Assembly (NCBI GenBank): GCA_029204225.1
Contig: CM055109.1
Location: forward strand, 373,500-437,499
DNA from: Diphasiastrum complanatum
Lineage: Eukaryota > Streptophyta > Lycopodiopsida > Lycopodiales > Lycopodiaceae
Length of the DNA: 64,000 nucleotides
Reading direction: 5' to 3'
Below are positions 5,700 through 56,912 of this stretch, in pieces. Each line of letters opens with the position of its first letter. Positions within the stretch are counted from its first letter, which is position 1. The notes below the pieces were generated by a model. That model did not search any database, was not told the origin of the DNA, and saw only the letters and a list, made by a program, of their open reading frames with translations. Both the position numbers and the translations under genes were made by a program.

Positions 5700-5802
5700 T
5701 TACTTCTTTTCCGTCAGCTTTGGGCTAGGACGCTGATACTTCAAATAACCATCCCACGGAACCATTTTGATACCAGCTCTGTCTGCTATCAGCTTGCGGA
5801 CC
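5700..5802 (-). CDS. GPAT9: GPAT9 coding exon 11 and stop
   Basis: 103 nt completing Arg337, encoding 338-370 and TAA. It contains [20 protein letters not shown] then LTEKK. Acceptor TGTGCAG. The stop overlaps a possible donor (AGAA/GTAAGG), so a further small exon could exist, but no family C-terminal sequence is visible below 5700. Confidence 0.9.
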
Positions 5803-8800
5803 CTGCACACGCTTAAACGAAAAGTATTGGCAGCCTGACCCCAACTCAGAAAAGCAGTTTGAACGACATATAGATTCTTTTTACAATAAAAATTAACCAG
5901 AAAAACCTTGACATCATGACTGAAATTATACCTCTCGGCAAACTCAATTGAAGTTTCACCAGGAAGAATATTTTGGGGTTCCATGTACCAGACATCACAT
6001 ACAACAGCCCATGACGTCATTAACCTTATCAAATGTTGGGTGAAACTTTGCCTGAAAAGTGCAAAATAGTGTTATGCTTTGTGACCAATCAATTAACCAG
6101 AAAGTAGTTTCTGCTTGATATTTTCAGAAATTCCATCCTTCAAACTCAGGTTGCTGTGACATATTGCGCATAAATGCCAATTGCTTGGAGTACATCCCAC
6201 CTTAATTGACTATGAGTATGTACCACATTTATTACTTTGTTGTTTACAAGTGAAACAAAGTCTGAACCATAGATGCACTGCGATTCTGAATCGCGTTTCA
6301 GAATAGCGATTCAGAAACGTGTTTTGGGATTTGCCCAAAATCGTGCAGAATCGTTTTTTTTTTTTGTTTTTGAAATTTTTTTAGGCAATATGGGTATCAG
6401 ATGAAAGCTCTGATTGAGAGCATTATGACTGTGTAATTTGCTGACTGTTTCGGGTGCGAAACACCAAAAAGTGTGTTTTCACTCAGGGAGTTGGAAGGCC
6501 AAATCATGAAGAGTGTGTTTTCACTCAGGGAGTTGGAAGTGCCCCCCAAGCCCCCCACCGGGGGGCTACCGCCCCCCGGACCCCCTCTTTCTCGGGGGGC
6601 TACCGCCCCCCGACCCCCCTAGAGCTTCCTGCTATATAGACACTGTAGATAAAAATGAGGTCCAAATGTGCGCCGAGAAGGGCCCAATATTTATGCCCCC
6701 AACTGTATGTACATTGCACTCACATCTCCAGTGAAACGATTGCAAAAGTCATCATCATCCATACAGTAGATAGTCCAAACTGTAGCATTAACATTTTCTG
6801 AAAACCACAGCAAATGACAACCGGATAGCTACTAAAAATAAGCTCTGTTTGTGCCTCATCTACTGCACTTTTGAGAGGCAAAACGCTGGTTTAACCATTG
6901 ATCCCCTAAAAAAATTTCAGCCATAAGCTATTTTTCCAAAATAATTTTTTTTTTTTTTGTTTTTTTTGCGATTCTGGGTCGGGAATTGCGACTCGCAGAA
7001 TCGCGATTCGCGAATTGCAGATCCAGCGAATCGCGATTCGATGCATCTATGCTCTGAACTAAGCTTCCAACATGGCATCATTTCAACCAAACATTTTCAT
7101 AGAATACATAGATTGGTCCTACTTTTGACAATTCTGTTCTTCAATCTTCAAACTCAGATATGTACTGTTCTGGGCATACCTTATGGAATGACATGGAAGG
7201 ACCTGGGCTTTCAAATTAAGGGATAAGTTCAAATTTTGAAATGGCCCTGGACTCTTCCCTGTGAAACCACCCTTACTCATGGAGCAAGGGTATATCAAAA
7301 TCAATTACATAAAACTTCAGCTAAAAGCTTCAGGCCTATAATTTGTTTCTTGCATCATGGTTACTCTCTCTCAGATTAGTCCATGCAAATGAGCAATATC
7401 TTTGCATTTTTAGTAGAGACAGGACTATGCCTGTTAAGAATAGATAGTACGAGTTTTGATGATAAATGTGCAGGAAGGAGTTTATGTATTGTTGGAGGAA
7501 CCGAGTTCCAGCCATTGGAAGTTGGTACAAACAAGAAACCCTGCAAAGGCTGCAGTGGACTGCTGTCTAAGGCACATGTAAGAGGACAATAGGCTTGATC
7601 TTTTGACATAATAGCTTGAAGGGGACAATGTAGCCAAAAGTGAATAAGTAGCTCACTCTACAGATTATAGTGAAAATGCTCTAAAGGCACGTGAAATTTT
7701 CCCATCTTATTACAAGTTTATACCCAAAATGTTCTTATGAAGAGGAATAGTGTACTTGTTGTTGGAATATTAGTATTTAGATATGGAGACGTTTAGCAAT
7801 GTAAATGAACATGCTACTTTGCAATAGGTATACCCAGCCAAGAATTGGCCCTGCAAGGCTCAGCCCTACAAATTACCATATTCAAATGGATTCCTTTAGA
7901 AGTTTTTCATTTACCAGCTGAAAACTAAAGGTTCTTACAAATAGCGCTTTCGATAGAGGCCTACGTTATAACCCTGTTTTGAACACAAACAATCTTAGGA
8001 CTTTTTATGCTTCTCTCTCAAAAAATTTGCAAGAAAATATTCTAAATTATGTGGATTGCAAAACTCTCTCAAGTAAAAGACTGATAGCGAAGAGGTTGAC
8101 ATCCTGAATGCAGCATAAGGAAAACAACGATACTATAGTATAACCAGGAGCATCTGGGCCAATGTACGACATTGACGATTTCTGATTGGCATTGCAAGGG
8201 AATTCAGTACTGAAAAGTCGTTTGGCAGGACCATATAATTTTCAGGAAAGAAAATTCATTTTCCAAGGGACTGCTATTCATCAGCAAGAGATGCCATGCA
8301 TTTCAAATAAAGCAAGTGAAAAGTTTATTGTCAAAGTATTATTAGCATATTAAAGGGTTCTGTAACTGATGAAGATTACATTTTAGCAGCAGACAATTTT
8401 CATTCTAGTAATAATCAGAATTGATCAACATAACAATTCAACATTTAAGATGATCACTCACTTTCTGCTATTCCAGAAGGCGTCTACAAATATCTTATTG
8501 TACTTTATGGCGATTGGGCAAACCGTACAGCCTAGCTCAAAAGCACCCTGCATTCAATAATATGTGATAACAACAATCAATACATGTAACATAATTGATA
8601 ATTGGGGTCGTATGGCTTGGCCATTACATCAGCACACAGAAAAAGAGCCTTGCTGAAGTTCACTTTTTAAGTAAAAGAAAGCACACTACCTATGTAGATG
8701 TGAAGAAACTTGCAAAAAGTGAAAGTTGAAGGTTTTATCTAGAGTGCATACGATTAGTGAACCTTTCTCATGCTACAAGCTGACACATTGTTCCAAAGCT

Positions 8801-9890: not shown

Positions 9891-9946
<56 letters not shown>

Positions 9947-12900
9947 TCATTCACGCTTATACATGAGTTCTCTTTTGGTTCGTATATCCATTTTTACATT
10001 ATAGTGTTGATATCTTGCAATCTTGTGTGTAGAATGCTATTGTAGGGACATAGTGGATCTTAGTGATCATAATTCTTCACATAGTATCAAAGCTATTGTT
10101 GCAGGTTATTGAAGGATCAGCCATCTTGAGCAAGGATTTGGAGGAGTTACCAATTCTAGAGTGTGCTAGATTGTTTTCTACTAAAAAATGAAGCATTTTT
10201 CATGTTAGGATTGAGTTTTTCAAAACTCAATATAGGGTTATGAACTTGAAGTAGGCCGATTTCACACTTCACTTACTAGATTTGGGCGACTTTAATTGCA
10301 TTAGATAGGTCTCATTGAAGACTACAAGATTCTATATCAACCTTGTAGCATTTGCATATAGAATTTGGATGATTTAATTTTTTGTAGTTTTGTCAAAACC
10401 CTAAATTTGTTTGGATCTCTTGTTTTTTAAGTTGCTGGACTTCTTAAGAGTGTGTTTCAAGTTTAGAGAAAGTACAAAAGTTCATGAGATTGTAGGTTGA
10501 TCGTGTGTTGATCAAGTATCTTCCATTCTATATGTTGGTTTTGCTAGGTTTGGTGCAAGAAAGAGATTTGAGAGGTTCCATATCTTTATGATTTCTTCTT
10601 GAGTTCATTTGTTGGCATTCAAGCATGTGCTTTGACTCAGAATTTGCTTTGCACAGGAACACAGATCATGCTACACAGTAACACATGACCCAGGTTGCCG
10701 TTGGCGGGACGCGTGTCCCATCGACTTGCCTCGTGGCGAGGCCAACTGCTCCTTATCCACTGATAGGACCCACAGTACAGTAACACAGTCACTTTTTATA
10801 CAGTCATATACATAGCTTTAAAGTCAACAAACTTTAAATACAGAAAGTTCTGATCTAAACTTATCAAACTTTTCTCCAGTAAGTGGCTTAGTGAAAATAT
10901 CAGCTAGTTGTTCTTCTGTGCTACAATGAACAACATGAATTTCACGACTTAGCAGCTTTTCACGTATGAAGTGATATTGAATCTCAATGTGTTTAGTTCT
11001 CGCATAGAACACTGGATTCTTTGCTAGCTGAATGCCACTCTGACTGTCGCTATGTAAAGTTGTGGGATTTTTCTTCTTCATGCCAATCTCTTCCAAGATT
11101 TGTCTCAACCATATAGCTTCTTGTGCAGCACTACACATTGCCTTATACTCAGCTTCTGTGGTGGAAAGAGCAATTGTACTTTGCTTCTTACTAGACCAGG
11201 AAAAGCAATTACCACAAAACTGGAATATATATCCTGTGGTGGATCTACGATCATCATAGTCACCTCTCCAGTCCGCATCCACATAGCCACACAACTCAGG
11301 TAAACCATCATGCTTCCTGTAAATCAAGCCATAATCTGATGTGCCTATCACATAACGCAAAATGTGTTTAGCTGCTTTCCAATGCGTTTCCGTAGGTGCT
11401 GCCATAAACTGACTTACAATGCCAACAACATAGCATATATCTGGTCTAGTTGTGATAAGGTAAATCAAGCTCCCTACTAACTGTCTATATAGCGTAGCAT
11501 CAAATGACTGTGATTCATCAAGCTTAGAAAGCTTTTTACCTGGTTCAATAGGAGTGTTTACTGGTTTGCAATCCTGCAACCTAAACCTGTGTAGTAACTC
11601 TTTGACATATTTCACTTGTGTTAAACCCACTTCATGTCCTTTTTGCCACACTTCTACTCCAAGGCAGTAATGCATCAGGCTGAGATCCGTCATCTCAAAT
11701 TGTTCCATGAGGTCTTTCTTGATTATGTCTATCATCTCTTGATTATTTCCCGTAATAAAAAAGTCATCAACATAAAGAGCAATCAAAGCAACCATACCAT
11801 CAAAGCATAAGACATATAGATTTGGATCAGAATGTGTTCTCACCATCCCCTTTGAACGAAAGTAGGCATCAATCCTGCTATACCACGCATGAGGTGCTTG
11901 TTTAAGACCATAAAGCGCTTTCTTCAAGCGACATACTTTATTTTCCTGTCCTTTCGTTACAAAGCCTTCAGGTTGATCCATGAACACTTCTTCTTCTAAC
12001 TCACCATTTAGAAAAGCAGATTTCACATCCATCTGATGCAAAGGCCAACCAAAATGTGAAGCTAAAGCAATAAGTAGACGTAGAGTATTCCACTTACACA
12101 CCGGCGCAAAGGTCTCCTCATAGTCAATGCCTTTATTTTGTGTGTACCCTTTGATTACCAATCTTGCTTTGTGCTTTGCTATGCTTCCATCTGCATGGTA
12201 CTTAGTTCTATATACCCATTTGCAACCAATGGCTTTCTTGCCAACTGGTGGTTCTACTAAGTCCCATGTGCTATGCTTAGCAATTGACTCCATCTCCTCT
12301 CCCATGGCCTTGATCCAAATGTCATCATCCTTCGCTTCACCATAAGTCGAAGGTTCTTTGCTTTGAATAATGCTGGATAACAGAGCATAATTTGCTTCAT
12401 ACCTTTCAGGTAGTATCTTCTCTCTTGTTGATCTTCGTAGTTCTCCCTGGTTAGATGATCCTGGAAAGTAGGTTGGCACACATGGATTTCCTCTTCCAAG
12501 AATCCATTCAAGAAAGCATTTGTCACATCAAGTTGGAAGAGCTCCCATTTGAAAGAAGTAGCAAGACATATGATTAATCTAATGGTTACAAGCTTTGCAA
12601 CAGGTGCAAAGGTTTCATCATAATTTATGCCTTTGACTTGCTAAAAACCTTTTGCTACAAGTCTAGCTTTATACTTATGAATGGAACTCTCTTGATTATA
12701 TTTCAATCTATATATCCATTACAAGTAAGAGGTTTCTATCGCGGCTCTCCATCAATCTCTCAAACCACTTAGAGAGCTTTCTGTCAGGTGATCGGCTTCC
12801 TGGTCAAAATGTATCCCACGGTACATCCTTTTCCTTGCGTTTGTCACCTGCAATTTCAATCCTTCTTGCACCAAAAGGTTTGTCCCTACCTCTCCAACCT

Positions 12901-18900: not shown

Positions 18901-21204
18901 TTCAAAATAACGAGGCATAACTAATAAACTCGTGTATTAGAGTACCAAAGGATTATTCCGATTCCTCGATACAGGACTTGGACGTAACTCTAACAAAGTC
19001 CAGAAGACATGATGCTTTCACAAGTGATGTCTCTACTCACGGAATTCTCCTAATGATGTTAGAGCTAACCAGGACTACCTACTACTACACATTTCCATAT
19101 CTTCAAATACCAAAAATTTCTATACCTATGTGATCAACTTGCACATAGCCTTTTATAGTGTGAGAGGACAACAAACTCAGCCATATTAATCTAGTGAGCC
19201 CCATTAATGGAGGGACTTCCACATGACAATATGGAAGCCCTAAATATGAAGAGCTGGCATAGCCAGATATCGAAGTCTAGTACACCAAGCCTCTATTGCG
19301 TGTATGGCCATGGGCATAACCAACATGTTAAACATATGACACTCGCTCCTCACATCTTAGATGTTTCTCCTATAAAAAAGTTGTTCCATGGAAACTAAGA
19401 ATATCTATCCCAGTAATCTTACATTTTCAAGGAATATGAGCTTCCCTTTGCCTGCTAAGGATGGGTGTTTGTGTAGTGCATACCATAAGTTTTGAAAACT
19501 CACCTTTTTGAACATAACAACATACTCATTATTCACACATGTACCCTCCGGAAATATAAGCAATGGATTGCTTTCCGGATCTTCCACATGTTCTCGTAAC
19601 CTGTTGATAGGAACATGAAGTATAAGGCAGCCATTTTTTTTTTCTTTCGACCTCATCTATGTTGCTAATTGGAGTCCAACTCCTAACCTCAAGTTGAGGA
19701 AAGGAGGTCTTCACCAACTTGCCACTTATTTGAGGACCAACCAATAATGTTAATAGTTTTTCAAGAAAATACAATCAAGTATTAGACAAACCCTAGCAAG
19801 AACAAATCACTTAAACCAACGATGTCAAATTATTTTCACATAGGTTCACCATATACATTCACCTTTTAGCAACATAGTGTCGATCTTTGGCTTCGGTGCG
19901 GTTAAATGAAATGCATCCGACACTTGGAAGAGCATAAGTTTGAAGCCAACCTGAACAAAATTTCAAAATCAATACAAAAGAGCTCGATATAAAGTGAAAA
20001 CCTTACTACGTTAAAATATCAAGTTATCAACACCTTTTAATAGAATCTTCCTACTTGAAGCCATCCAGTAATTTTAGAAAACACTTATGGATGTGTTGAG
20101 TTGTTGAAACAAGATTAAAAGAAAAAGTCTATGCATCACATTCATATTTAGCATCCTTTGATTTTAAACAATGGCATGAGAACATACAGTACGAGATAGT
20201 GTTTCACCCGGTTCAGAATCAACCTTTTCGTAATTAGATGAGTTTCTTGGCATCAATGGTGGTTTAGAATCAGTCCATCTCAAAAAAGTCAAAGATCAGC
20301 AAGAAATATTTTTGCAGATTTTTAATGATATAGTGCTAAAAATTATCTACTATAATATGTATCTTAGAAACCCGTCCCGGCCCTTTTGGGTTGGAATGTA
20401 CTGGGTCAAGACATTTTTTTTTTAATTTAAAAAATTAGGTACTAAAGCCTGAAATAGGTATTAAAACAGAGTGTATATTTATGATCGTCCAACAATGATG
20501 AATCTAATGAGAGCCTAAAAGGAAGAGTTAAAAATAGAAGAGAAAACATTATTGATTTGTTTGACTAATGGAAGACAATTGATCTCGCTGCCTAATCTTA
20601 TGACCTACTAAGTGCTTGGTTTTTCTTTAAACCAAGGATCTTAAACTTGATGATAGTAACTAGCAGGCATGAAAATCTTGACAGATCGAATCCTTGCAAG
20701 GGAGCAACTTTGATGTGAACTACTTTTATAAGCTTACCTGGATGCAGGGTTGCAGCAATCACGATTCGCGAATGGTGATCCCAACGAATCGTGACTTTTA
20801 GGGAGAATTGTGATTCCAAATTTTTTTTTTTGCTTAAAGCACTGTTTGACGCACAATAGTGAGTGATCAAACTTTTTCCAAATTTCTTGCTAGTTGGCAG
20901 ATTGCGGTGTTTGAACATCTGACGCACATCAACTCGGTGATATTGTGCATGGTGGCAATGGAGTTTGAGCTGCACGGGGCAAGAAATCGGCAAAAGAAAC
21001 TTTTTGGTGAGTTTAGACTTCTCTTTTTGCAAAAGAATAGATTGAGCTCTAGGCAACGAATTTGGGTGGGTGTTTGCTCTAAAGCAACTTTCTTTGGGCC
21101 CACAGACATTCCTACAATGTTATTTTTAGCCGTTACCATGCATAATGAAAGATGTGAAGTATCACCCAAAATCCGCTGTAATTGGGAGGCGGAAGTCCGA
21201 CCAA

Positions 21205-32336: not shown

Positions 32337-32397
<61 letters not shown>

Positions 32398-32695
32398 GAA
32401 GCACGCAAATCTAATATCTCTCTCTCACCCTAAACCCTAAACCCCAAACCCAAGCACCCTAAACCCTAAAACCTAAACTCACACACACACACCATGTCTC
32501 GTACACGCGCGCACACACACAAATCCTCTCTCTCTGTCCCTCACACTCTCTGTCTCTTCCTCTCTCTCTCTCACACACACAAATCACCACACACACACAC
32601 ATCTGTATGCACACAAATCAACAATATCCACACACACACACACACACATAAATTACCACACACACACAATCATCACACACACACACAAACACCAT

Positions 32696-32767
<72 letters not shown>

Positions 32768-47700: not shown

Positions 47701-50700
47701 CATTGTAAGGAGCTTGCTCCGCTCTTGGCATTGCCCAGATGGCGTGGCCAGGCTGTATATATTGTGTATAACCCACTAGTGGCGTAACTCTGTATCCAAA
47801 AAAAAAAATACACTATGCCATATTTTCCTTCAATGCACAAACATTAGAAATGGTTGTTTTCTGAATTTCTTGGCAGCGCAACTTCTAGTGCATTTTTCTC
47901 TCCAACATTCCAACACTAAATTGCATGTTGTCAGTTGCTCCCAAGTCGCACTTGATAGGCGCTCCTCTTGATCTATTTGTCTTTTAGGATTTGTGCTCCT
48001 TTGCTTAGTTTTCAAAAATGTTCTTTGAAACTTTCCTTAAAGCTTTTTCCACAATCTCATTTCAAAGCTTTTTGGTGTCTCTCGGGCTGCAATTTCTTTC
48101 GAATTCTGACCTAATCCCACCAGCAGCCTTTGTAAGTATGGTACTAGTCCAAATGGTATTACAATTGATGCAATATTGAGTGAGTTATGGCTTTTTCCTA
48201 AAAACTGTCAATTTTACCCAATTTCTCAAAAATTTGGCAATGGATTTCTCAATTTTCCATCAAATTTACTATAGTTTGATGTTGTGGACACTTCAAGCAG
48301 TTGTTTGTAGCTCCCACAAGCTTTTTTGCAGCTGCTTTTGTGCTCCATATCTAAATGGGTGCTAATTTGTCCACCGTAGCCTTCAAGCTTTCAGAAAAGC
48401 CCTTTTTGAAGCTCTCCTAAATAGTTAAACATGTTGATCAATTGAAACTATCACTGTAGCCTCACTATTCTGTGCACAATCCTATGCCAACCTACAATTT
48501 GGTACCAAGTTCAAATTATTGAAAGACATGACAATAGATTTGCACGAGAAGCATCAATATGAAGCACCACAAACATGAATTTCCAAAACTTGAAAATCCA
48601 CATTGATTCTATTTCACTAAAAACATTGTACAACCTGCATGGCTAGGATTGCCACTTGTGGAATGCCTATCCCGCCAACTAGCTAGTGACTAGCTGGTCT
48701 AGCTACTAGCCTAGTTCTAATCTACTGACTAAACTGCTAGGCTTACAGTGCTAGTAACTCAACTTTTATGTTAATACATATTGATGGATAGTAAGCCATT
48801 TTGTCACAGATTTTTACCGAGTGATTCTCATCACTTTCCTAGATTTCACTTAATAAATATCTCGACCAACTACTTTGCTGATTAAGTCAAGCTTGGCCAT
48901 AGTGGCTTCTGCCATAAGTGAAAGGCATTTTGGGTTCTATTGTCCAAAAGTCTCCAACAGTGAAAGCATGCAATGCATGTGCATATTTGTAGAGAGATAT
49001 ACATGTATATTTTCTATGCTAATACTATAAATGATCGTTACTTGAAAGGTACTCAACAATACAAGAAATGGGTGTCATTTATTATGCAGTATTGTCTTTA
49101 TGCCTAGCAACCTTCTAAATAGACATGACTAAAGCTTGTGAATATGGCTTAAAAGTTTATGCATCATTTTACCAAGGGATAAAATTGATCTTGCATCTCA
49201 ACCAATACAACATCAACATAAATTGTATAGATGAGACTATGGGCTCAATTCCCATGAGTGAGAGAATTACCTTACAGGAAATAGGATACCATATCGTACC
49301 ACAACGCCAAGGCACCAAAGAGGAAATAAATATAAATTCCAATTCCATCGTTCGGGGGGATTTGACTTGAAGCACCTAGTAAAAGAATCCTGTGACATAT
49401 CAAGAGCACATGCTTAGTCCACAAAAGGAATATTCTATAGGCGAATATTACTATGTAGGATTACTGCACAAGTACAATAATACAATGACATCAAAGTAAG
49501 CTAAGCAAAGTGACATACCATCAGGAAATTTTGAAAAGCAGAACATTTGAACTACAAGTAAGCAACCTCAAGGTAGATCTTCTACGGTTTGTAACATATG
49601 TGAGAATGGACTTTTTAGTGATCGTTAGTGATAGTAAGGGTCACATAAGAAGTTATTGCAAGCCCCTCAAGAGAAACTAACTTCAAAATTTACCCAAACA
49701 TCCAGTAAAAGTCTTGAGAAAGACCTTTCCCCTATGTAGAGGTTGAGCATAAATTTCAAAACAATCATACTAAAATCTCAATTGGCATTTCTACAACAAT
49801 TGGTATAAAAAATCCAACAAAATTGATACCACAAGTAAAACCAAATATGGGCATGATAATTAGGTGAATTTTCTAATCACGGACTTCTATGATGTACCAA
49901 ATCTTTGTGGATGAGACTTATCTACCTTGGAATTGTTGGATTATTCTACTGTCGGAGTGATTCATCCGAATAATCGATCTTTAATCTTCATCCACTTTAT
50001 TATCCAGTTCTGCAATTTTATTCGTGTTTCTACACAGTCTACAAAAATACTCAGGAATCGCTCAACAGGTGGCTCCGACATATCGGACATCATCCGACAT
50101 ATCGACAACGCCGACGAAAGTCGAAGGAGTCGACATGTCGAAGACTGACAGTTATTGTTCACTTGATATGAAGCTAAAGACTTGCCCTAATTGCGTTGCA
50201 AGTAAATCTTTGGGAAGTCCTAACTGGATGGATGCCAGCGCATTTCGGCCATTTACCAAATGCGACTTCGGCCTGATTAGTTGTCCTACTGGATATGCTT
50301 TAGTATAAATAGCTGATCATCAAAAACTTCTTTAACTCTAACTCTAGCTCAGCTCTCAAGCTCAATTCTTCTTCAGAGTTCTACTAGAGTATTGCTATTC
50401 GTGCTCACTGCTTATCAGCGGAAGTGCATAAGACCGAGTTTTCAGCTACTCAAAAATAGCTTAGAGTAAGGGGTTTCATCCGTTATTGTTTTGCGATCTC
50501 ATCATCTAATTTGTGCATGCTACTTGCTGAATCAATCTATCCTTTTTATTGCGTTCAGTATCATGTCAGAATGTATGCTTCTCTGTAGTTATTTGTAACT
50601 GATAAATCTCTTATTTTTGTCTGTTTTGTTGAATACATCAACACTACAATATTCAATACATCATTGTTTGGCTACGAAATCACTTTAGTGCTAATGATTT

Positions 50701-53700
50701 CAAAGTTGGTTGCTAAAAGATTGAACGTGACTTCATTCATTATAGTTTTGTTCAATATTGATAGGCGTAGTCATGCATTAGGAAAGAAGGCTTATTCCGG
50801 TGCACTCGATAGGTCGTTTACAGTCTTCAACTTATCGAACCGACTCATTTCACCTCCCTCTTTCCAACATGGTATCAAAGCTCTACTACTTGATATCTTT
50901 TATGGTATCAGAGCGATATCATTAGATACTTTTCATAGTATCATATTAGAGCATACTTGCTCTTGTTCTTCAATTTGTGATATCAAATTTCAGTATCAGA
51001 TAATTGATTTCCAATTGTAACGCAGCACGACATCATTCTTAAAGTCATCGATTTATCGACAGACTAAAGTTCCAGATGGATTCTCAAAGTAAAGCCGGTC
51101 TCATCGCAGACAAGCCGAATGGATCCAATTACTATTTGTGGAAATTTAAGATGAAGACCTTGCTAATAAACGAGTTGTGGGATGTTGTCACAGGTATCGA
51201 AGTGAAGCTTGAAGATGACACAACCGACTCAAAGTGGAAGTCGAAGGATGGTAAAGCTTTTGTGCTTATTATTCTCAATATATCAGACACTTAGATTGGC
51301 CACATATCTTAAGCTCAAACTTAGAAAGAAGTATGGGACATCCTGAGCTCACTATATGATGTGAGAGATGTGACTTCCAAGTTACATCTAAGAAGAAAAT
51401 TCTTCACTCTCAAGATGTCAAATGGTGATTCACATCAGAATCACGTTAACCAGTTTAAGATCCTCTTGCAACAGATGGCCGTTGTCGTAGATCGATCATC
51501 AACGATCAAGATGCAATTATGAGATTGCTTTCAAGCTTGTCCTCTACATACGAGAACTGGGTGATGATCATATCCACACACTCAGATTTAACTCTTACTA
51601 GAGTTATCACTATGTTGCTGCAAGAAGACAATCAAAGAAGTCAAGACATCTCGTCGACTTCATCATCTCATGCTCTATATGTCAACAAAGGCTCAAAACG
51701 ACAGAAGCAAAAAAGCTCTAAGCAGTCCGCATCAAATCAGAATTCGACGCAAAGAAGTCCAAGAAGAAGATGTTTTGTAAGTATTGCACACACGCTAATC
51801 ATGAGATCGAGGATCGTAGGGTTCTCAAAGCGAAGAATGCCAGTAAACAACCAGATCAACAGGCGAATGCAGTCACAGCACCTCCGACATCGACATGGAC
51901 AAAGGAGCATTTATGGTCAAAGACCGAAAAGCACTATTGGATAATTCTTGGTTTTTGGATTCTGGAGCTACTCAACATATGACCAGTCGTCGTGAGAATT
52001 TTCACTCCTATACACCTTACAGTACAAAGAAATACGTTCATCTTGGCGACGATAGCACACACACTATTGAAGGTGAAGGCACTGTAAGATTGAAGTTCCA
52101 GCATGATCAATTCAAACTATTATCAAATGTTTTGTATGTACCTAAACTATCTACAAATCTGGGTCAATAAGTAGAATCACTGATTTAGGTCATAGGGTAG
52201 AGTTTAAGTCTGATCAATGCATCGATAGGACAAATAAGATCCTTGCACTCGGCAAGAGGCATGGATACTTATATAGATTGGTACATTTTTATTATGACAC
52301 TAGTCAAGCCTTGAAAACCTCTATTCTTGTCAGTAAAATATTATTATGGCATCAAAGATTAGGATACTTGAATCATACATCTGTGTCGAACATGTCTAAA
52401 CAATCCCTAGCACTTGATCTCGACTATCCAACCAACAAAGTCGACCTCCCTGTCTGTCATAGCTACATCCTTGGAAAGCAAACTAGGATTCCTTTTAGAT
52501 CGAGTCATAGGCATGCAAGAAAAGATGTTCTAAACATTGTTCATTTAGATATATGTTGTTCAATGCAAACTTCGTCGTTGCTTGATGCAAAATATTTCAT
52601 TACCTTCATTGCCGAATATTCCAGAAGAACAGTTGTTTATTTCATTAGGCAGACCGTCCAGTCGCGTTTGAGAGTAAGAAACTGGATAAACACCAATTGA
52701 ATTATTCCACTTATGAGAAGGAGTCGTTTGCAATAGTCTATGCTCTTAAGAAATGGAGGCATTACCTCTATGGAGCTAAGTTTGAGATCGTGTTTGATCA
52801 AGAAAGTATCAAGTGGCTTTTGTTAGAGTCCAGTTACGACTCTATCATGACCTCGGCACGACCGGTCACCAGAGGGCCTGAGGCCAAGTATTGGCAAGGG
52901 CCGGTGACCGAGGAGGACATTTGTCCCAAGTTGGGACCGGTGCGTCACGAGCAGTGACCCGATGTGGCCGCCTGACAAGCTATCATAGACGCAGTGTGTC
53001 GTGACCGTTAGGACCCTAGCCGTCAGTGACGAGATGCTACCGACAAAAAATCGGAGGCTTTCAAAATCTTTCGACAATTCAAAGAGTGTGCAAAATATGA
53101 AACTGGTAAAAGAATTAAAGCACTGAGGTCCAACAACGGGGGAGAATACATTTCTGCTGAATTCAAGGAGTATTGCCTTAACAACGACATTACTTACCTC
53201 CTATTCGCCTCAGTCGAATGGACTTGCTAAGAGAAAGAACAAAACCTTAGTCGAATCTCGGCCAAGTGTATGCTTGCGAATTCGACATGACCGATCTGGG
53301 TGAAGCTCATTACTGTCTAGGTATTCAAATCCAAAGAGACAGAAAACAGAAGTTGATTTATATTACAGATGTCGAAGGATCAATGTCCTCAGAAAATCTA
53401 AGAGAAGGAGCAAATGCGTGAGTATCCTTATCATTCGATAATAGGATCTCTTATGTACGCGATGATCTATACCAGACCAGCGTTTGCAGTCAATTCATGA
53501 CTAATCCTACGACAAACTGAATATTCTCAGTGGATTTTCAGATGCAAGTTGGGCAGGAGATGTAGACACTCGTAAATCCACTTCTGGATTTACATTCTTC
53601 CTCAACGATGGTCCTATTTCATGGAACAGTCGCAAGCAAACTTCAATTGCTCTATCTTCTACTAAATCAAAGTATATTGTAGCCTCTCAAGCTACAAAGG

Positions 53701-56700
53701 AAGCAGTATGGTTGAGAAACTTACTTTCAGATGTTAGTCTGAAACAATATGCTCCGACAACTTTATTTTGTGAGAATCAAAATGCTATTTCTTTATCAGC
53801 CAACCCTAGATTTCATTCTAGGAGTAAGCACATTGATATCAAGTGTCACTATGTCAGAAGCAAAGTTCTCGACAAAGAGGTAAACTTGCAGTACTGAGAA
53901 TGCAAGATTATGACAACGGATATTTTCACTAAAGCATTAAGCTTGGATGCACACAAAAAGTTTTGTGCAGAACTAAGTTTGAAGGTCACTTACATTCTTC
54001 GACTTATTGAACCTACTCATTTCATCTCCCTCTTTCCAACAGGAATGGTATTGGTAAAACCTTTACATTCTCATTCTAGAAAAGTGTTATGTCAGTTGCA
54101 TATGGACCTAGGAACCATGAACTCACTTCACTCAAATTTAACTAGGCACCGTGCAAGACCTAGTCCAAAATGTTTTCATAATGGCTTATTAAAATTCCAT
54201 ACCTCAAATAAAGTATTTGATGCTTCAATAACAAACAATTTCTTGAAACCAATGATAGTTCTCAAGAAATTGTCATATCAAGCTTGCAGATGCACAAATA
54301 TATAAAATCTAGACAACGATTCGTTCATCGGAACTCCGGTCTTGGAGTAGTCTTGGGCGTCGGCTGAACCAAAGAAGCCCATAAATCAGTGTAAAGAGTA
54401 AAAGTTATTGATGGTGGCAAAGGATGTACAGAAAAAAAATCTGCTGAAAGGTATTTGTATCTAGTAATCAAATGCTCCTAGTCACAACAATAGATACCCA
54501 TTTTGGACCTCTCAGTTTGGAACATTATATCTTGTAAATATGGAACTCGAGTGAGTGTGAAAAAAAAAAGTTGAATTTTTTTTTTCTGTGTAAAAAATTT
54601 TTTACCCTAAAAACATTTTGACATCATATTTTTGCAATGCCAACTTCTTTAAGGGAACTTGGGGACCTGAAAACTTATGTTTAAAATTTATACCATTTTC
54701 TATGTTTAAAATTTATACCATTTACGAACATTGGATCTAAAGTGAATGAGATTGAAAGTAAATATTGAATGCCAAAACAATAGCTTTTGACAACACTGAC
54801 CATAAAAGCAACCTCAACATAAAGTTGAGCCAAGTCAAAAGTTCAAACACTTTTTTTCAAAAAATATACCATACCACTATCCAAATAGCATCTGATGTAA
54901 ATGAGATTGAAAGTGAGAATTGAATGCTGATAAATAATACTAACTTTTCACAAGCCATACCACAAGCAACCTCAACATAAAGTTGATCCAAGTCGAGAGT
55001 TCTAACATCTCTTTTCTAGGAACATACCATATTGTCTTAGTTCAACCACTATCGTGACTATCCCTATAAAATTTGAAGTAAATGAGATTGAAAGGGAACA
55101 TTCAATGCCGATAACTAACAATAGCTTTTGACAAGCCATACCATATAAGCAACCTCAACATAAAGTTCAGCCAAGTCAAGAGTTCTAGAGTTTCTTTTCT
55201 ATGAATATACCGTACCATCTTGGTTCAACAATTATCCAAATAGAATTAAAGCTACTTGTAAGTAACCAAAAGTAGCATATGTACGAATCATGGAAGTATT
55301 CTTTTATGTATAAATGGATTTTTTATCTCTAAATAGTCTATCTAAGGCAGCCCAATGTCATTGCCTATTTTTTCTTTGGTTTAGGGTCTAACTAATAAAT
55401 AAAAGTTAGAGTCTTTTTTAAGTGCATTTCAACTAAATTTGTTTTACGTCATGGCCTGCTGTTTAAATGCATCAACACATCACGTTATGGACAAATTTTG
55501 ACAGTTCTTATCAGAGGATTAAACAGGAGGAGCAGAAAATTTCTTATGATTATCTAATCATAGCTTGTGTTGCTTTACGATATCATAACTCACAAAGCAA
55601 GAAACTGAATCCCTCACTGTCATGAATAACAATCCTAAGGACATATTGCAAAAGGAAGATTATCCATGTGAGAGAGTGGGGAACTTACATCAATGATAGC
55701 GCTTGCCACTTCAGTCAAAACTGGTGATATATCCAGGAGATTGGAGCTGGCTTTGTCAAAGTCACAAAAATCTATATTGACAACGTAGTATTTACTCCCT
55801 TGTAAGTTATTCAGACAAATTGAGTTTGGATAGATGGTCTCCTTGTTTGAGAGGTCCCGGCACATCAGAGCATAGTTTCCCATTTCAGAACAAAACGCAT
55901 TCCGTTCCGAAATGTGGCCCAAACAATAAAAATAAAATTCATAACTATTTAACAAAGAAAATTTTCTAGCATTATAATAATTGGTTCCTAGCATTATTTC
56001 ATCCATTTAAGATGGCCATTATGAATGAGAATGCATTTAGTGCTCCAATTGACTCTGATGCTTCATGTTATTTACTCCTATTTCAAGCTTCAATGACATT
56101 TGAAGAATGACAAATGCTGACTTAGTGTTCAAGGTTAAGTACTTAGCGTTAGGTTTTGAAGGTGGAAACATCCATATTGAGTATCGGCCATGCCAACATT
56201 GCCATCTTTGAATTGGAGGTTGCAAAGCTGTAAGGACCAATGTCATTTGAGTAGCCAATGTTTTCCGATTCACTGATTTTGATTCACAATTCTAATTCAG
56301 ATGTTGAAATCAGTCAATTTCAATTTACAATTCCTATCCGCATTGGTATTGGCCAATTCAAATTGAACAAACAAAAATTGACTTTGTAATCAATTTTCTT
56401 CCCAAAAATCCAATTCATTTCTGATAAAACCTTCAATGGATCAATGCACAAATCTATTCTAAATCTGATCTATTTAGTTCCTAATTCTGTGAAAAGTTTT
56501 TGAATTGTTTGCAGTTTTAATAGCTAGTAAATATTGAGCAGTGAGCACTGAGTAACAACTAATTTTGGATTAAAAGGCCACATTCCGACCCAGTACGTTT
56601 TGGAACATACAGTACATTCCGACTGTAAAGGGTCGGAACAGGTTTCTAAGCATCAGAGACACAAAGTAGAAAATGTGTTCCAGAACCTTTTCATCCACAA

Positions 56701-56912
56701 ACGAGGGAAAGAAAGCTAGATACAGGATATATGCAGATAAATCAAATGGCAATAGGATACAGTAGCAGCTTTGTTTCTTCGGCGATAATGGGCTCTGCTG
56801 ATGGATATGCCTCCAAATCTTCCAATGGATCCCGACAAAGGTCTGTCTCTGAAAATGTGCGCCCATAGTCTTGAGCTTCCTTTTCCAGACTGCTGATGCT
56901 CGAGACCGACAT
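5700..56912 (-). CDS. GPAT9: Glycerol-3-phosphate acyltransferase 9, whole gene span (11 coding exons, 10 introns)
   Basis: ER membrane sn-1 acyltransferase, the plant counterpart of animal GPAT3/4. It acylates glycerol-3-phosphate with acyl-CoA to lysophosphatidate, the first step of membrane glycerolipid and triacylglycerol synthesis. Joining 11 minus-strand segments gives 1113 nt (370 codons plus stop); Arabidopsis GPAT9 is about 376 residues. Motif I is H180-D185 (NHTSMID), motif II FNR 222-224, motif III FPEGTC 252-257, motif [10 protein letters not shown] 277-284. Hydrophobic segments lie at about 84-110, 111-127 and 145-160. The start was chosen because an in-frame TGA lies three codons upstream of the ATG and the following residues match the family's N-terminal pattern. 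All introns are GT-AG and phases agree throughout. Oddities: W-to-S before FNR, a C-terminus about 14 residues shorter than Arabidopsis, and introns up to 15 kb packed with transposons. Family comparison is from memory. Confidence 0.92.
5932..6051 (-). CDS. GPAT9: GPAT9 coding exon 10
   Basis: 120 nt completing Lys297 and encoding 298-336 plus two bases. It contains [17 protein letters not shown] and [10 protein letters not shown]. Acceptor TTTCAG, donor GAG/GTATAA. Intron 9 (2.4 kb) holds the hAT element at 6268-7051. Confidence 0.97.
6268..7051. mobile_element. Non-autonomous hAT element in GPAT9 intron 9
   Basis: 784 bp with perfect 10-bp terminal inverted repeats (CATAGATGCA / TGCATCTATG) and 8-bp target duplications differing at one base (GTCTGAAC 6260-6267, CTCTGAAC 7052-7059). 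Both ends are packed with GCGATTC repeats in both directions, and there is no transposase. The interior has a 42-bp tandem duplication (6471, 6513) and a G/C-run hairpin (6541-6620). Confidence 0.88.
6541..6620. repeat. C-run/G-run hairpin block
   Basis: Alternating CCCCCC and GGGGGG blocks (for example ACCGGGGGGCTACCGCCCCC, repeated after 40 bp) can pair with each other and give four or more G-runs on either strand. The small proline-rich frames here come from this composition. From 7060 to 8461 and 8548 to 8850 I see only unremarkable intron sequence. Confidence 0.6.
8462..8547 (-). CDS. GPAT9: GPAT9 coding exon 9 (motif IV)
   Basis: 86 nt, residues 269-296 plus two bases. It reads [20 protein letters not shown] followed by VDAFWNSR, nearly identical to the family. 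Acceptor ATGCAG, donor AA/GTGAGT. It is separated from exon 8 by 11 kb of nested copia DNA. Confidence 0.97.
8850..9004 (+). repeat. Truncated gypsy-type LTR 3' end
   Basis: It ends GATTCTAACA directly before a primer binding site, in the same arrangement as the LTR at 2104-2521 (TAACA, two T, PBS, then ACC), but the LTR sequence itself differs. The left limit is uncertain. The GC-rich leader to about 9560 has a poly-T/poly-A core like that after 2536, and no gag. Confidence 0.55.
9007..9019 (+). other. Primer binding site (initiator Met tRNA)
   Basis: TGGTATCAGAGCC, two bases after the LTR end. Confidence 0.8.
9580..10081 (+). repeat. 5' LTR of copia B (left limit uncertain)
   Basis: It ends CTTCACA before a one-mismatch primer binding site (TAGTATCAAAGC, 10082-10093). 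It contains a (CT)n microsatellite at 9894-9943. A leader follows to 10632 and is then interrupted by copia A; the gag resumes at 16848. I could not find the second LTR, so the start is approximate. Confidence 0.5.
10824..12479 (-). CDS. Copia A reverse transcriptase-RNase H (551 codons)
   Basis: Order: [64 protein letters not shown], catalytic ALYVDDFFI, then RNase H with [38 protein letters not shown] and the terminal [13 protein letters not shown]. The domains look complete and uninterrupted. Upstream, the link to integrase is broken by the fragment at 12475-12740, so a single Gag-Pol cannot be made. The stop is about 35 bp from the 3' LTR, leaving almost no 3' untranslated space. Confidence 0.9.
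   Translation of the reverse strand: MPTYFPGSSNQGELRRSTREKILPERYEANYALLSSIIQSKEPSTYGEAKDDDIWIKAMGEEMESIAKHSTWDLVEPPVGKKAIGCKWVYRTKYHADGSIAKHKARLVIKGYTQNKGIDYEETFAPVCKWNTLRLLIALASHFGWPLHQMDVKSAFLNGELEEEVFMDQPEGFVTKGQENKVCRLKKALYGLKQAPHAWYSRIDAYFRSKGMVRTHSDPNLYVLCFDGMVALIALYVDDFFITGNNQEMIDIIKKDLMEQFEMTDLSLMHYCLGVEVWQKGHEVGLTQVKYVKELLHRFRLQDCKPVNTPIEPGKKLSKLDESQSFDATLYRQLVGSLIYLITTRPDICYVVGIVSQFMAAPTETHWKAAKHILRYVIGTSDYGLIYRKHDGLPELCGYVDADWRGDYDDRRSTTGYIFQFCGNCFSWSSKKQSTIALSTTEAEYKAMCSAAQEAIWLRQILEEIGMKKKNPTTLHSDSQSGIQLAKNPVFYARTKHIEIQYHFIREKLLSREIHVVHCSTEEQLADIFTKPLTGEKFDKFRSELSVFKVC
12475..12740 (-). pseudogene. Foreign copia RT fragment inside copia A
   Basis: The minus strand reads [19 protein letters not shown], stop, [20 protein letters not shown] and [18 protein letters not shown]. 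This is the N-terminal RT of a different copia lineage. The same RT region of copia A itself is present intact just downstream, so this piece is additional and was acquired by recombination or template switching. Confidence 0.8.
12804..15224 (-). CDS. Copia A gag-protease-integrase polyprotein (806 codons)
   Basis: Order: UBN2-type gag ([20 protein letters not shown] near residue 20), zinc knuckle [14 protein letters not shown] near 245, aspartic protease [13 protein letters not shown] near 305, GAG-pre-integrase [14 protein letters not shown], integrase core with D (RTDLCGPM), D ([10 protein letters not shown]) and E ([10 protein letters not shown]). The frame is uninterrupted to a stop at 12804, where the RT should follow. 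The host context is GPAT9 intron 8, with transcription sense the same as the gene. The start is the first Met of the frame and leads directly into the gag domain. Confidence 0.9.
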   Translation of the reverse strand: MANMGESILSESSKLDGISNYAVWKFKMKNILMEKDVWEVVTGDERRPPNEADIKVFDKKLRKALTFINLSMKDHIITHICDAVTPRQAWDVLKEQFETSNPSRIMFLKSKLNSARMEQGEHIQTYMTRIKTMRDELHSIGERIRDVELVHNALCGIAEPYQMFVSGIASRERLPTFDELTGILMQEEQRREMVKARCQNTDDQALATHQKQGKGKGKKKTKQQFAKSQEDEGSSSKTKKKGKCFHCGKKGHWKSECRKFLAEQGKGKPKQAGNLVDEGETEDSSIFISALSSNQDDQAWYIDSGATRHMTGNKNWFSSLKALDNGTSVSQANGEVCMIKGIGTVSIQLPDGKSRMIREVLYVPGLKKNLLSVGVITDQKLKVEFAHDRCFVKDANQKFKVIANGVREPNTKLYRLNATIKGQHGLVSSIPSQTELWHKRLGHLNLGSLSLMRKLEMVTGLPTIEDHLKSMCESCIYGKQHREKFNKGGVARAKNILDLIRTDLCGPMRTMSLGKAFYFMTFIDDMSRKTWIYFLKKKSDAFDNFKNFKNLVENQTGKKIKVLRSDSGGEYKSNDFNDLCDQCGIKRQFTQAHTPALNGVAERKNRTIVESARSMLAEMKLPKDFWSEACSTAVYLQNRSPTIAIPKITPEEAFTKKKPKVNHLRIFGCKAFVHIPKEERRKLDVKAIKCIFLGYDDRVKGYRCFDLVKNKIHISRDVIFDESKMYEDEDAEKIDTSSRKNGIVRISPDDDPFIDLPSDEHEDTSQDTTTQPQETGWRGRDKPFGARRIEIAGDKRKEKDVPWDTF
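16848..17240 (+). pseudogene. Copia B gag (UBN2-type), interrupted
   Basis: Plus strand: [20 protein letters not shown], then an in-frame TAA after RPLAQQD, then [20 protein letters not shown] and [19 protein letters not shown]. This is the DUF4219/UBN2 gag pattern of plant copia elements. It continues the element whose LTR and PBS are at 9580-10093; copia A sits between leader and gag. Confidence 0.8.
17238..17889 (+). CDS. Unrecognised coding-like stretch downstream of copia B gag
   Basis: Two overlapping plus frames (17238-17504 and 17416-17889) follow the gag. The second, 157 codons, contains [34 protein letters not shown] and an acidic, Lys-rich end. I recognise no retrotransposon domain (no zinc knuckle, protease, integrase or RT) and no known host family. 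It may be an acquired host fragment or noncoding filler of a large non-autonomous element. Confidence 0.3.
18505..18620 (+). pseudogene. Ty3/gypsy reverse-transcriptase crumb
   Basis: Plus strand reads [20 protein letters not shown], the gypsy RT motif normally [20 protein letters not shown], then breaks down. No flanking domains remain. The rest of 17890-19503 shows nothing I can identify. Confidence 0.7.
19504..19600 (-). CDS. GPAT9: GPAT9 coding exon 8 (motif III)
   Basis: 97 nt completing Arg236 and encoding 237-268, with [16 protein letters not shown] and MFKK at the end. Acceptor CAACAG, donor AAG/GTGAGT. Intron 7 is 262 bp. Confidence 0.97.
19863..19950 (-). CDS. GPAT9: GPAT9 coding exon 7 (motif II)
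   Basis: 88 nt completing Gly207 and encoding 208-235 plus two bases. It reads [20 protein letters not shown]; the family usually has VGCIWFNRSEAKDRE, so the Trp before FNR is Ser here while the substrate-contacting Arg is kept. Acceptor TTCAG, donor GTGAAT. It lies 13.5 kb from exon 6. Confidence 0.94.
20363..20410 (+). repeat. hAT-type terminal repeat of the GTTCCG family (orphan end)
   Basis: CTTAGAAACCCGTCCCGG followed by GGAATGTACTGGGTC matches the inverted ends at 23490-23533, 56582-56650 and 57352-57430. I could not pair it confidently, since candidate 8-bp flanks do not match. 19951-20362 is otherwise plain intron. Confidence 0.5.
20745..21601. mobile_element. Non-autonomous hAT element in GPAT9 intron 6
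   Basis: 857 bp flanked by perfect 8-bp duplications CCTGGATG (20737-20744 and 21602-21609). The ends CAGGGTTGCAG and (reverse) CATAGTTGCAG match at 9 of 11. Subterminal repeats are built on CGATTCG/CACGATTC. A (GA)n tract at 21208-21290 explains the Arg-Glu frames. No transposase. Confidence 0.85.
22576..23011. mobile_element. Small non-autonomous hAT-like element
   Basis: 436 bp; flanks ACTTCAAA (22568-22575) and GCTTCAAA (23012-23019) match at 7 of 8. Ends TATGTTGCACGTGATC and (reverse) GATTTGCAGCGGATC are similar. Subterminal repeats are of the GATCTGG/GATCCAGATCG type. Confidence 0.6.
23168..24410. repeat. Cluster of GTTCCG-type hAT ends
   Basis: CATAGTTGCCTGTTCCAGAA at 23168 is the inverted counterpart of the sequence ending at 24410 (rc TAGTTGCCCGTTCCAGAA). 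A second end type (CGGAACGGGTTTCTAAG) lies inside at 23517-23533. Target duplications were not found, so element limits are unresolved and may be nested or rearranged. Confidence 0.5.
24178..24356 (+). repeat. Two-copy 90-bp tandem duplication
   Basis: The block containing GAGCTAGAATCGCTGTCTG and CTATATATCTTGATTGCG is repeated at a 90-bp offset with few changes. It lies within the hAT-end cluster. Confidence 0.75.
24822..25013 (-). CDS. Unrecognised short ORF
   Basis: 63 codons with protein-like composition ([35 protein letters not shown]). The WFNR resembles acyltransferase motif II, but the context does not fit and the true motif II exon is at 19863-19950. It may be a gene fragment or chance. 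Confidence 0.2.
   Translation of the reverse strand: MTAINFAKSDEEPVSKLWFNRGQSMKGIRAYANSVLNIFKENHFLARLRRYCGAKKANGAWWL
25021..25070. repeat. Perfect 20-bp inverted repeat with 10-bp loop
   Basis: TGAGCTCGTTTAGATTAAAC, ten bases, then its exact reverse complement. There is no mismatch in 20 pairs in otherwise decaying intron sequence, so it is either recent or constrained. Confidence 0.95.
25464..25483 (+). repeat. Homopolymer (C)20
   Basis: Twenty consecutive C residues. Such runs are uncommon in plant DNA and prone to assembly error. Confidence 0.9.
25934..26120 (+). repeat. 112-bp tandem repeat, left array
   Basis: Copies begin at 25934 and 26046 (CCTACACAGTACTCTGTCC, then CGGATGAACTTCAACAACTT); the second is cut off near 26120. 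The same unit recurs at 28328. Confidence 0.85.
26328..26552 (+). repeat. 225-bp direct repeat, left copy
   Basis: Matches 28663-28889 in the same orientation with moderate divergence (shared GACGACACCTGAAA, CCCGAATCGAGCCAGGCT). The pair brackets the large inverted repeat. It has no LTR-like TG/CA ends that I can confirm. Confidence 0.8.
26880..28280. repeat. Large imperfect inverted repeat of captured gene-like sequence
   Basis: The left arm (26880-27520, plus) and right arm (28280-27640, minus) are alignable along their length, with a loop of about 120 bp. Both arms keep parallel coding-like text: [13 protein letters not shown] on the left and [14 protein letters not shown] on the right; [18 protein letters not shown] and [18 protein letters not shown]; then TCSRILP and TYSRILP. 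I do not recognise the protein. The arrangement suggests a host fragment captured and duplicated head to head inside the transposon. Confidence 0.75.
28328..28663 (+). repeat. 112-bp tandem repeat, right array (three copies)
   Basis: Copies start at 28328, 28440 and 28552 with few differences and are the same unit as at 25934. The array leads directly into the right 225-bp direct repeat. Confidence 0.9.
28663..28889 (+). repeat. 225-bp direct repeat, right copy
   Basis: Counterpart of 26328-26552. Confidence 0.8.
29640..32335 (-). pseudogene. hAT transposase with BED zinc finger, decayed
   Basis: Minus strand from ATG 32335: BED finger [20 protein letters not shown]; a one-base shift near 32085 into a Pro/Ala/Ser/Thr-rich linker; DUF659 region ([40 protein letters not shown]) to a donor at about 31258 (CAG/GTACAA). 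The next exon (about 31133-30909) has VVTDNASN followed by a stop and then [17 protein letters not shown]. The next (to about 30440) has [15 protein letters not shown]. The dimerisation end near 30050-30430 is frameshifted, and an acidic tail lies at 29640-29970. The in-frame stop and shifts make it non-functional as read. The domain order is typical of plant hAT transposases. Confidence 0.85.
32428..32480 (-). promoter_or_regulatory. Telobox cluster upstream of the hAT start codon
   Basis: Four or more imperfect CCCTAAA/AAACCCT units about 95-145 bp upstream of the transposase ATG. Teloboxes are common in plant promoters and 5' leaders. Alternatively this is interstitial telomeric repeat. 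Flanking (CT)n, (AC)n and (CT)n tracts occur at 32338-32395 and 32505-32763. Confidence 0.55.
32696..32763 (+). repeat. (CT)n microsatellite
   Basis: About 68 bp of uninterrupted CT. It produces the Arg-Glu/Ser-Leu frames seen here. Confidence 0.95.
33403..33499 (-). CDS. GPAT9: GPAT9 coding exon 6 (acyltransferase motif I)
   Basis: 97 nt, residues 175-206 plus one base. It holds the catalytic HX4D motif in [15 protein letters not shown] and ends in MQKHPGWV. Acceptor TTGCAG, donor GTGAGT. Intron 5 is 118 bp, so exons 4-6 form a compact cluster. Confidence 0.97.
33618..33713 (-). CDS. GPAT9: GPAT9 coding exon 5
   Basis: 96 nt, residues 143-174, phase 0 at both ends. It contains [18 protein letters not shown], a signature stretch of the family just before the acyltransferase domain. 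The donor is CAG/GTCCTT, a weaker consensus. Intron 4 is 207 bp. Confidence 0.95.
33921..34017 (-). CDS. GPAT9: GPAT9 coding exon 4
   Basis: 97 nt completing Arg110 and encoding 111-142, including the membrane stretch [20 protein letters not shown] and the basic end LRRKLE. Acceptor GTGCAG, donor GAG/GTGAAT. Confidence 0.95.
35074..35085 (+). other. Primer binding site of a truncated copia element
   Basis: TGGTATCAAAGC directly after an LTR end (GATCACAACA, 35073). The LTR's left limit lies somewhere in 34500-35000 and could not be set. About 300 bp of leader follow before the copia D LTR. The stretch 34018-34500 shows nothing identifiable. Confidence 0.65.
35424..35549 (-). repeat. Copia D 3' LTR remnant
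   Basis: Matches 48508-48638 (shared TTCAAAT, AAAGACA, GAAGCAT, CATGAATT, ATTCTATTTCAC, ACATTGT) in the same orientation. It is cut at 35549, where the copia C LTR begins. Confidence 0.75.
35944..39308 (-). pseudogene. Copia C gag-pol, decayed
   Basis: From the right: gag ([20 protein letters not shown] near 38950), zinc knuckle [14 protein letters not shown] near 38460, protease with DLGATSHF (normally DSGAT) near 38240, pre-integrase [14 protein letters not shown] near 37850, integrase end [20 protein letters not shown] near 37250, RT scraps ([15 protein letters not shown] near 36560, [15 protein letters not shown] near 36510), RNase [21 protein letters not shown] and the terminal [20 protein letters not shown] near 36080. 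Much of RT, including the YVDD region, is missing. Several frames and stops make it inactive. Confidence 0.85.
39309..39354 (-). other. Tandemly duplicated primer binding site and LTR terminus of copia C
   Basis: On the minus strand TGGTATCAGAGC occurs twice, at 39353-39342 and 39321-39309, each preceded by the same LTR end (GGGTAGATTCCATCA). The repeat offset is 32 bp. Confidence 0.85.
40003..40360 (+). repeat. 5' LTR of gypsy G
   Basis: TGTTACGAG...ATTACA. The first bases contain the perfect palindrome GTTACGAGCTCGTAAC. Differences from the 3' LTR are at 40126, 40215 and 40299, each a C of a CpG here and T, T or A in the other copy. Confidence 0.97.
40362..40374 (+). other. Primer binding site of gypsy G
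   Basis: TGGTATCAGAGCC one base after the LTR; complementary to initiator Met tRNA. Confidence 0.95.
41071..45849 (+). CDS. Gypsy G Gag-Pol polyprotein (1592 codons)
   Basis: A single frame with gag capsid region at about 130-300 ([20 protein letters not shown]), zinc knuckle [14 protein letters not shown] near 345, protease [10 protein letters not shown] near 433, RT with [10 protein letters not shown] (677), [14 protein letters not shown] (713), [12 protein letters not shown] and catalytic VFLDDIL (778-784), RNase [14 protein letters not shown] near 928, an acidic linker ([15 protein letters not shown]), integrase HHCC zinc finger (HPGIQK ... CQKCQ, 1178-1213), DDE core ([23 protein letters not shown]), and C-terminal chromodomain [19 protein letters not shown] (1555-1575). 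The stop TAA lies 12 bases before the 3' LTR. The 700-bp leader has no other gene. The protease carries DDGA where DSGA/DTGA is usual. Confidence 0.97.
45848..45860 (+). other. Polypurine tract of gypsy G
   Basis: AAGGGGGAGGGAG, immediately before the 3' LTR and overlapping the stop codon region. Confidence 0.93.
45861..46218 (+). repeat. 3' LTR of gypsy G
   Basis: 358 bp, three substitutions from the 5' LTR, followed by the CAGTC target duplication. Confidence 0.97.
46278..47480 (-). pseudogene. Copia D integrase-protease-gag remnant
   Basis: Minus strand, same lineage as copia A. Integrase piece (GKKINVLRS then [10 protein letters not shown]-like, 46280-46620), pre-integrase [13 protein letters not shown] near 46790, protease [10 protein letters not shown] near 47120 (Asp of DSGA changed to Asn) with [15 protein letters not shown] before it, then scattered gag/zinc-knuckle text to about 47480. 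RT and RNase H are missing: the element stops exactly at the copia C boundary. Confidence 0.8.
47626..47806 (+). mobile_element. SINE (tRNA-like head) inserted in copia D leader
   Basis: About 181 bp flanked by an 11-bp target duplication AATACACTATG (47615-47625 and 47807-47817) and ending in an A-rich tail (CCAAAAAAAAAAA). The head looks tRNA-derived: GCGGTGCTTGGGTAGAGTTG resembles an A box, and GGTTCCCAGCC could be a decayed B box. There is no coding capacity. Promoter-box assignment is inference; the duplication and tail are direct. Confidence 0.75.
48508..48640 (-). repeat. Copia D 5' LTR, recognised part
   Basis: Counterpart of 35424-35549. A degenerate primer-binding-like site (minus TTGGTACCAA, 48498-48507) lies on its internal side. 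The LTR probably continues to the right, but its outer end could not be set; 48640-49270 shows nothing else. Confidence 0.6.
49271..49389 (-). CDS. GPAT9: GPAT9 coding exon 3
   Basis: 119 nt, residues 71-109 plus two bases. It begins [18 protein letters not shown] and continues into the first hydrophobic segment ([19 protein letters not shown]). Acceptor CACAG, donor AG/GTAATT. It is isolated between a 6.3-kb and a 15.3-kb intron. Confidence 0.95.
51076..53990 (+). pseudogene. Copia E gag-pol, decayed
   Basis: Gag starts [20 protein letters not shown] and is broken by stops near 51294 and 51525. The zinc-knuckle relic [14 protein letters not shown] lacks the last Cys. Protease [13 protein letters not shown] near 51960 is conserved. 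Pre-integrase [15 protein letters not shown] near 52350 and integrase [20 protein letters not shown] lead up to 52648; a gypsy fragment intervenes; integrase resumes at 53045 ([24 protein letters not shown]). RT is almost wholly deleted (jump near 53270). RNase [21 protein letters not shown] and [19 protein letters not shown] end the coding part. Confidence 0.87.
52649..53044 (+). pseudogene. Gypsy RNase H fragment fused to an LTR-like segment, inside copia E integrase
   Basis: After a frameshift it reads [20 protein letters not shown] then [19 protein letters not shown], a gypsy RNase H. At about 52826 the text changes abruptly to TGTTAGAGTCCAGTTACGAC, an LTR-like start with GC-rich sequence to 53040. 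Integrase, chromodomain and polypurine tract are absent between them. Copia integrase text flanks it on both sides and would be continuous without it. Confidence 0.8.
54741..55245 (+). repeat. Three-copy imperfect tandem repeat (about 156-181 bp)
   Basis: AATGAGATTGAAAG recurs at 54744, 54899 and 55081, each time followed by AGCAACCTCAACATAAAGTT and CCAAGTC. Copies are diverged. No coding content; 54047-54740 shows nothing else. Confidence 0.85.
55689..55746 (-). CDS. GPAT9: GPAT9 coding exon 2
   Basis: 58 nt, residues 52-70. It reads [19 protein letters not shown], matching the family's DLLDISPTLTEAAGAIVD. Acceptor GCCAG, donor GTAAGT. Intron 1 (1,014 bp) holds the hAT element at 55871-56650. 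Confidence 0.93.
55871..56650. mobile_element. Non-autonomous hAT element in GPAT9 intron 1
   Basis: 780 bp flanked by a perfect 8-bp duplication CATCAGAG (55863-55870 and 56651-56658). Ends are CATAGTTTCC and (reverse) CTTAGAAACC, with GTTCCG/CGGAAC repeats just inside. No transposase. It ends about 110 bp inside the exon 1 donor. Confidence 0.93.
56761..56912 (-). CDS. GPAT9: GPAT9 coding exon 1
   Basis: 152 nt encoding residues 1-50 plus two bases. It starts [11 protein letters not shown] and continues with an acidic region ending in EETKLL, ahead of a GT donor (ACT/GTATCC). The region is weakly conserved in the family, so this exon is the least certain by sequence, but the phase fits exon 2 exactly (CT/C gives Leu). 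Confidence 0.78.

Follow-up and report, generated by a model that had tools for sequence, protein, structure and literature searches.

Does the locus studied here hold a complete gene for a GPAT9-type glycerol-3-phosphate acyltransferase, and if not, where does the gene end? The locus lies on the minus strand of a 64,000-nucleotide stretch of DNA from the clubmoss Diphasiastrum complanatum, here called the window. An original prediction had described a complete gene running from 56912 down to 5700, more than 98% of it intron and its introns containing nearly every transposon of the window. Our analysis makes it highly probable that the locus is a nuclear gene of Lycopodiaceae encoding an enzyme of the GPAT9 clade at the endoplasmic reticulum (ER), with 12 exons and 11 introns that have grown by transposon insertion, and with its twelfth exon beyond the left edge of the window.

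Exon layout and identity of the product

Spliced together, eleven minus-strand exons give an open frame of 1113 bp (370 codons and a stop), with no frameshift or internal stop, GT...AG borders in all ten introns and consistent phases, just as had been predicted. The frame opens with an ATG at 56912 in exon 1 (56761..56912), which ends in phase 2, and continues through exons 2 (55689..55746, phase 0), 3 (49271..49389, phase 2), 4 (33921..34017, phase 0) and 5 (33618..33713, phase 0). Exons 6 to 9 carry the acyltransferase motifs: one in exon 6 (33403..33499, phase 1), motif II, GCISFNR, in exon 7 (19863..19950, phase 2), one in exon 8 (19504..19600, phase 0) and motif IV, CPIAIKY, in exon 9 (8462..8547, phase 2). 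Exon 10 (5932..6051) again ends in phase 2, and exon 11 begins at 5802. The ten introns, in order, measure 1014, 6299, 15253, 207, 118, 13452, 262, 10956, 2410 and 129 bp. Within the predicted span of 51,213 bp coding sequence makes up 2.2% and introns 97.8%, slightly less than had been claimed; were the gene to extend to the left edge of the window, with 1109 coding bases in 56,912, the intron share would exceed 98%, at 98.1%.

The product contains a single Acyltransferase domain (PF01553, E 7.2e-25, residues 161-283) and is 71% identical to a GPAT9 sequence of Arabidopsis over 351 aligned positions. A protein search with a cut-off of E 0.001 returned 1702 proteins, and among the best 120 of these, which were listed, the top match is the D. 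complanatum protein O6H91_17G018600 (hereafter P0001), 97% identical over 98% of the query in local alignment and 95% identical in multiple alignment. All four acyltransferase motifs are present, with motifs I, III and IV unchanged and motif II having serine where tryptophan is usual. The residues named for boxes I-IV of GPAT9 in the account we cite, His and Asp, Phe and Arg, Glu and Gly, and Pro (PMC6724121), are all found in the window protein, as H180, D185, F222, R224, E254, G255 and P279, and are invariant in the 12 rows of our alignment. A sequence search of solved structures gave no match at E 0.001, and the structure prediction for P0001 (mean pLDDT 57.2) is too poor for use. Homologues, motifs and intron phases agree, as does a tree of GPAT9-type proteins alone, and membership of the predicted product in the GPAT9 family, which had also been proposed, is well supported. 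It had been feared that annotation would split or lose such a gene; this is not borne out for the closest protein listed, P0001, which is one annotated product of 399 residues.

At the 5' end, similarity to P0001 starts at 56894, and the ATG at 56912 agrees with the first exon of the published GPAT9 pattern. The P0001 model starts differently, and its first 19 residues, used to look for an upstream exon, found no convincing match within the window. The start codon at 56912 is plausible, if unproven.

A stop codon inside a splice donor

The stop closing the predicted frame falls in the letters AAG TAA, but these letters form an exon end, AA, followed by GTAAGG (5703-5698), a good splice donor with its border at 5704/5703; the TAA itself occupies 5702-5700. 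Nearly all land-plant GPAT9 genes are described as having 12 exons, with intron phases 2,0,2,0,0,1,2,0,2,2,2 (PMC5913721). If exon 11 is taken to end at 5704, in phase 2 (corrected coordinates 5704..5802), the ten complete introns and the eleventh donor of the window gene reproduce these eleven phases exactly. The GPAT9 gene of peanut, in the structure drawn with its UTRs, is reported to have 13 exons and 12 introns (PMC7474056), and the exon count of GPAT9 is therefore not wholly fixed.

Homologous proteins argue for the same correction. A tail beyond the predicted stop, mostly beginning QQ, is present in 112 of the 120 listed homologues, and its first glutamine is invariant in the 36 homologues chosen for one alignment, a selection containing none of the eight that break off right after the same lysine. 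Among those eight, three end at the lysine, three go on with tyrosine, as expected from read-through of a donor, and the remaining two with other letters. The TAA at 5702-5700 is very probably intronic, and the 370-residue model very probably misses the final exon. That the gene is complete, as had been claimed, is not supported, since its supposed stop overlaps the conserved donor of intron 11 and the window yielded no exon 12.

We searched for this exon with five tail peptides over the whole window. There were 18 matches scoring 24 or more, none of them on the minus strand below 5700, and within positions 1-5700 the tail of P0001 scored at best 19, whereas it scores 78 with itself and 37 with the tail of its paralogue P0003, which is of the 81%-identical type; an exon 12 in the remaining 5.7 kb was rejected on this basis. 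A 13-column tail profile reached 0.9 at best, while 100 shuffles reached up to 5.5. This profile, built from 109 of the 120 tails and without those of P0001 and P0003, tests the clade of the window gene poorly: P0001 itself, when left out, scores just -1.1 against it, and the anchoring pattern placed P0003 wrongly. The profile adds little, and the conclusion rests on the peptide scan.

Could the lineage instead have lost exon 12, so that the gene truly ends at 5702-5700 and encodes a tailless GPAT9 of 370 residues? The open frame does close there, the scans of the next 5.7 kb gave no further exon, and three of the 120 listed homologues end on the same lysine. However, the stop shares letters with a donor whose phase is the conserved one, the 95%-identical P0001 retains its tail, the three short homologues may themselves be products of retained introns or of annotation, and three others read on with the very tyrosine that an unspliced donor would yield. 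Such a truncation appears very improbable to us. As the close relative P0001 keeps the tail and no counterpart was found in 5.7 kb, exon 12 most likely lies past the left edge of the window. Intron 11 would then start at 5703, run off the window (1..5703, minus strand), exceed 5.7 kb and include a Gypsy (321-1151) and a Copia (2834-3025) remnant.

Exon 12 would encode the tail by which GPAT9 is reportedly brought back to the ER; a pentapeptide within this tail is described as the retrieval signal (PMC6724121). P0001 has VFNKL at this place, and a loose hydrophobic pentapeptide pattern occurs in the tails of 95 of the 120 listed homologues, P0005, a further D. complanatum protein, not being among them. 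More generally, the case shows that a gene model built by hand may look plausible and yet end on a stop codon within an intron, an error that conserved intron phases bring to light.

A duplicate clade in lycophytes

Besides P0001, two more D. complanatum proteins occur among the listed matches, 81% and 73% identical to the window protein. The species therefore has at least three GPAT9-type proteins, and the window protein differs from all three listed. In a tree of 37 rows, built from GPAT9-type matches alone with no GPAT1-8 or plastid outgroup, the window protein joins first P0001 (support 100/99), then P0003 (100/100); the three share a long stem, and weak support (81/79) places them close to P0005 and Selaginella. 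The window gene thus belongs, as judged from its predicted protein, to a lycophyte duplicate clade beside the more typical D. complanatum copy P0005.

Members of this clade depart from conserved positions. The window protein differs at 6 of 188 columns that are at least 95% conserved in 118 other rows, P0001 at 9 of 189 and P0003 at 5 of 189; the 118 others, each left out once, have a median of 2 departures and at most 9. One of the departures of the window protein is the change of the motif II tryptophan to serine, and P0003 has methionine at this position. These departures point to a lineage-specific duplicate whose constraint is somewhat different, rather than to a dead gene.

It might nevertheless be argued that the exons merely look intact, and that the gene is a decaying duplicate, silenced or mis-spliced through the burden of its transposons, with the work being done by another GPAT9 copy. 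The presence of at least three GPAT9-type proteins in the species would allow this, as would the position of the window protein, which groups with a fast-evolving pair and not with the more typical P0005, and the loss of the motif II tryptophan. Yet GT-AG borders are kept in all ten introns and the eleven exons are free of frameshifts and internal stops, the box residues reported as needed are retained, the six departures are within the range of the 118 other rows, and a close orthologue persists. We consider decay improbable.

With this in mind, one may speculate that clubmosses hold an extra, faster-evolving GPAT9 lineage whose motif II change from tryptophan to serine or methionine accompanies a new acyl preference or role, for example in spore oil; this lineage would have remained intact despite a roughly tenfold expansion by transposons over a compact GPAT9 gene. 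This proposal is tentative, and we think it rather unlikely in this full form. GPAT9 has been described as mostly single-copy, and a lycophyte duplicate clade may interest those who work on spore and membrane lipids; in the literature library searched, no paper paired GPAT9 with a word beginning Lycopodi.

Transposons, gene size and comparison with known genes

Remnants of transposons were sought with 25 selected open frames (26 scanned proteins including the gene product) and with the window's own elements as queries, a list that is not exhaustive. Twelve were recognisable, nine inside the predicted gene span and three outside it (321-1151, 2834-3025 and 59683-63606). This span makes up 80.0% of the window, and nine of twelve remnants in such a share represent no excess, so the impression that nearly every transposon sits in the introns is not borne out, and enrichment of transposons in the gene was rejected by proportion.

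Intron 8 contains a minus-strand Copia element (10635..16767) with two long frames and terminal repeats about 98% alike; further remnants within the span lie at 16837-17217, 18358-18682 and 46276-47257. In intron 6 there is a minus-strand DUF659 frame (31183..32424), which we take to be of the hAT-transposase type. Intron 3 has a degraded, Copia-related element on the minus strand (35549..40002), the right-hand repeat end of which resumes at about 46219-46280; nested in it is a young Gypsy chromodomain element on the plus strand (40003..46218), antisense to the gene, with CAGTC on both sides, a 359-bp terminal match at 99.2% and one frame of 1600 amino acids. This Gypsy insertion split a terminal repeat of the older element. 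At 2.2e-9 substitutions per site and year, a rate given for gymnosperms and not for clubmosses (PMC9364684), the Gypsy element would be about 2 million years old. Intron 2 contains a degraded Copia element on the plus strand (51124..53981) with a Gypsy piece at 52649-52822.

Several other repeats were observed. Upstream of the gene, a second Gypsy chromodomain element (59683-63606, minus strand) is broken into several frames, and near the left edge the Gypsy remnant is framed by a 138-bp repeat (151-287 and 2103-2238, 91% alike) which may be part of the LTRs of a broken element. Intron 6 contains a foldback-like element, an imperfect palindrome of about 1.4 kb at 26863-28289 that matches itself in inverted orientation at 67% and has 112-bp tandem units and a 225-bp direct repeat at its flanks. 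Beside the DUF659 frame, at 32337-32819, there are long microsatellites of TC/CT and CA. At 55850-57440 similar short stretches around CGTTCCGACC, spotted by eye near 57.4, 56.6 and 55.9 kb, are perhaps a small inverted-repeat element.

Taken together, these features can be accommodated in a simple model. The gene would have kept the old land-plant layout of 12 exons and 11 introns, while insertions of Copia, Gypsy and hAT-like elements enlarged several of its introns. Transcription across the locus and splicing would remove these insertions and join the short exons into a message for a protein of about 385-400 residues, which is predicted to transfer an acyl group to glycerol-3-phosphate at the ER and so to begin the synthesis of membrane lipids and oil. 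Exons 1-11 would lie inside the window, and exon 12 with the C-terminal tail would most probably follow past the left edge.

How does this gene compare with known ones? With land-plant GPAT9 (clade I in the classification of PMC5913721) it shares the Acyltransferase domain, the four motifs, the order of intron phases and high identity; it differs in its far longer introns, its motif II serine and its place in a lycophyte duplicate clade. Peanut GPAT9, for instance, is reported at about 5.5 kb (PMC7474056). P0001 is a likely orthologue at 95% identity, but its model has another N-terminus and a 16-residue C-terminal tail that was not found in the window. Long introns are not general among lycophytes, since a mean intron of just 426 bp is reported for Isoetes sinensis. 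A modest coding sequence spread out by intronic transposons is likewise found in other plant genes such as MSH1, which reaches 805,861 bp in Cycas and whose length is reported to track the transposon share of its introns (PMC10487979); the window gene is unrelated to MSH1 and far shorter. It is thus ordinary in kind, as long transposon-rich plant genes are known and the protein of a near relative is already annotated. Size and transposon load alone are unsurprising in plants; what is of use here is the correction of the 3' end and the recognition of the duplicate clade.
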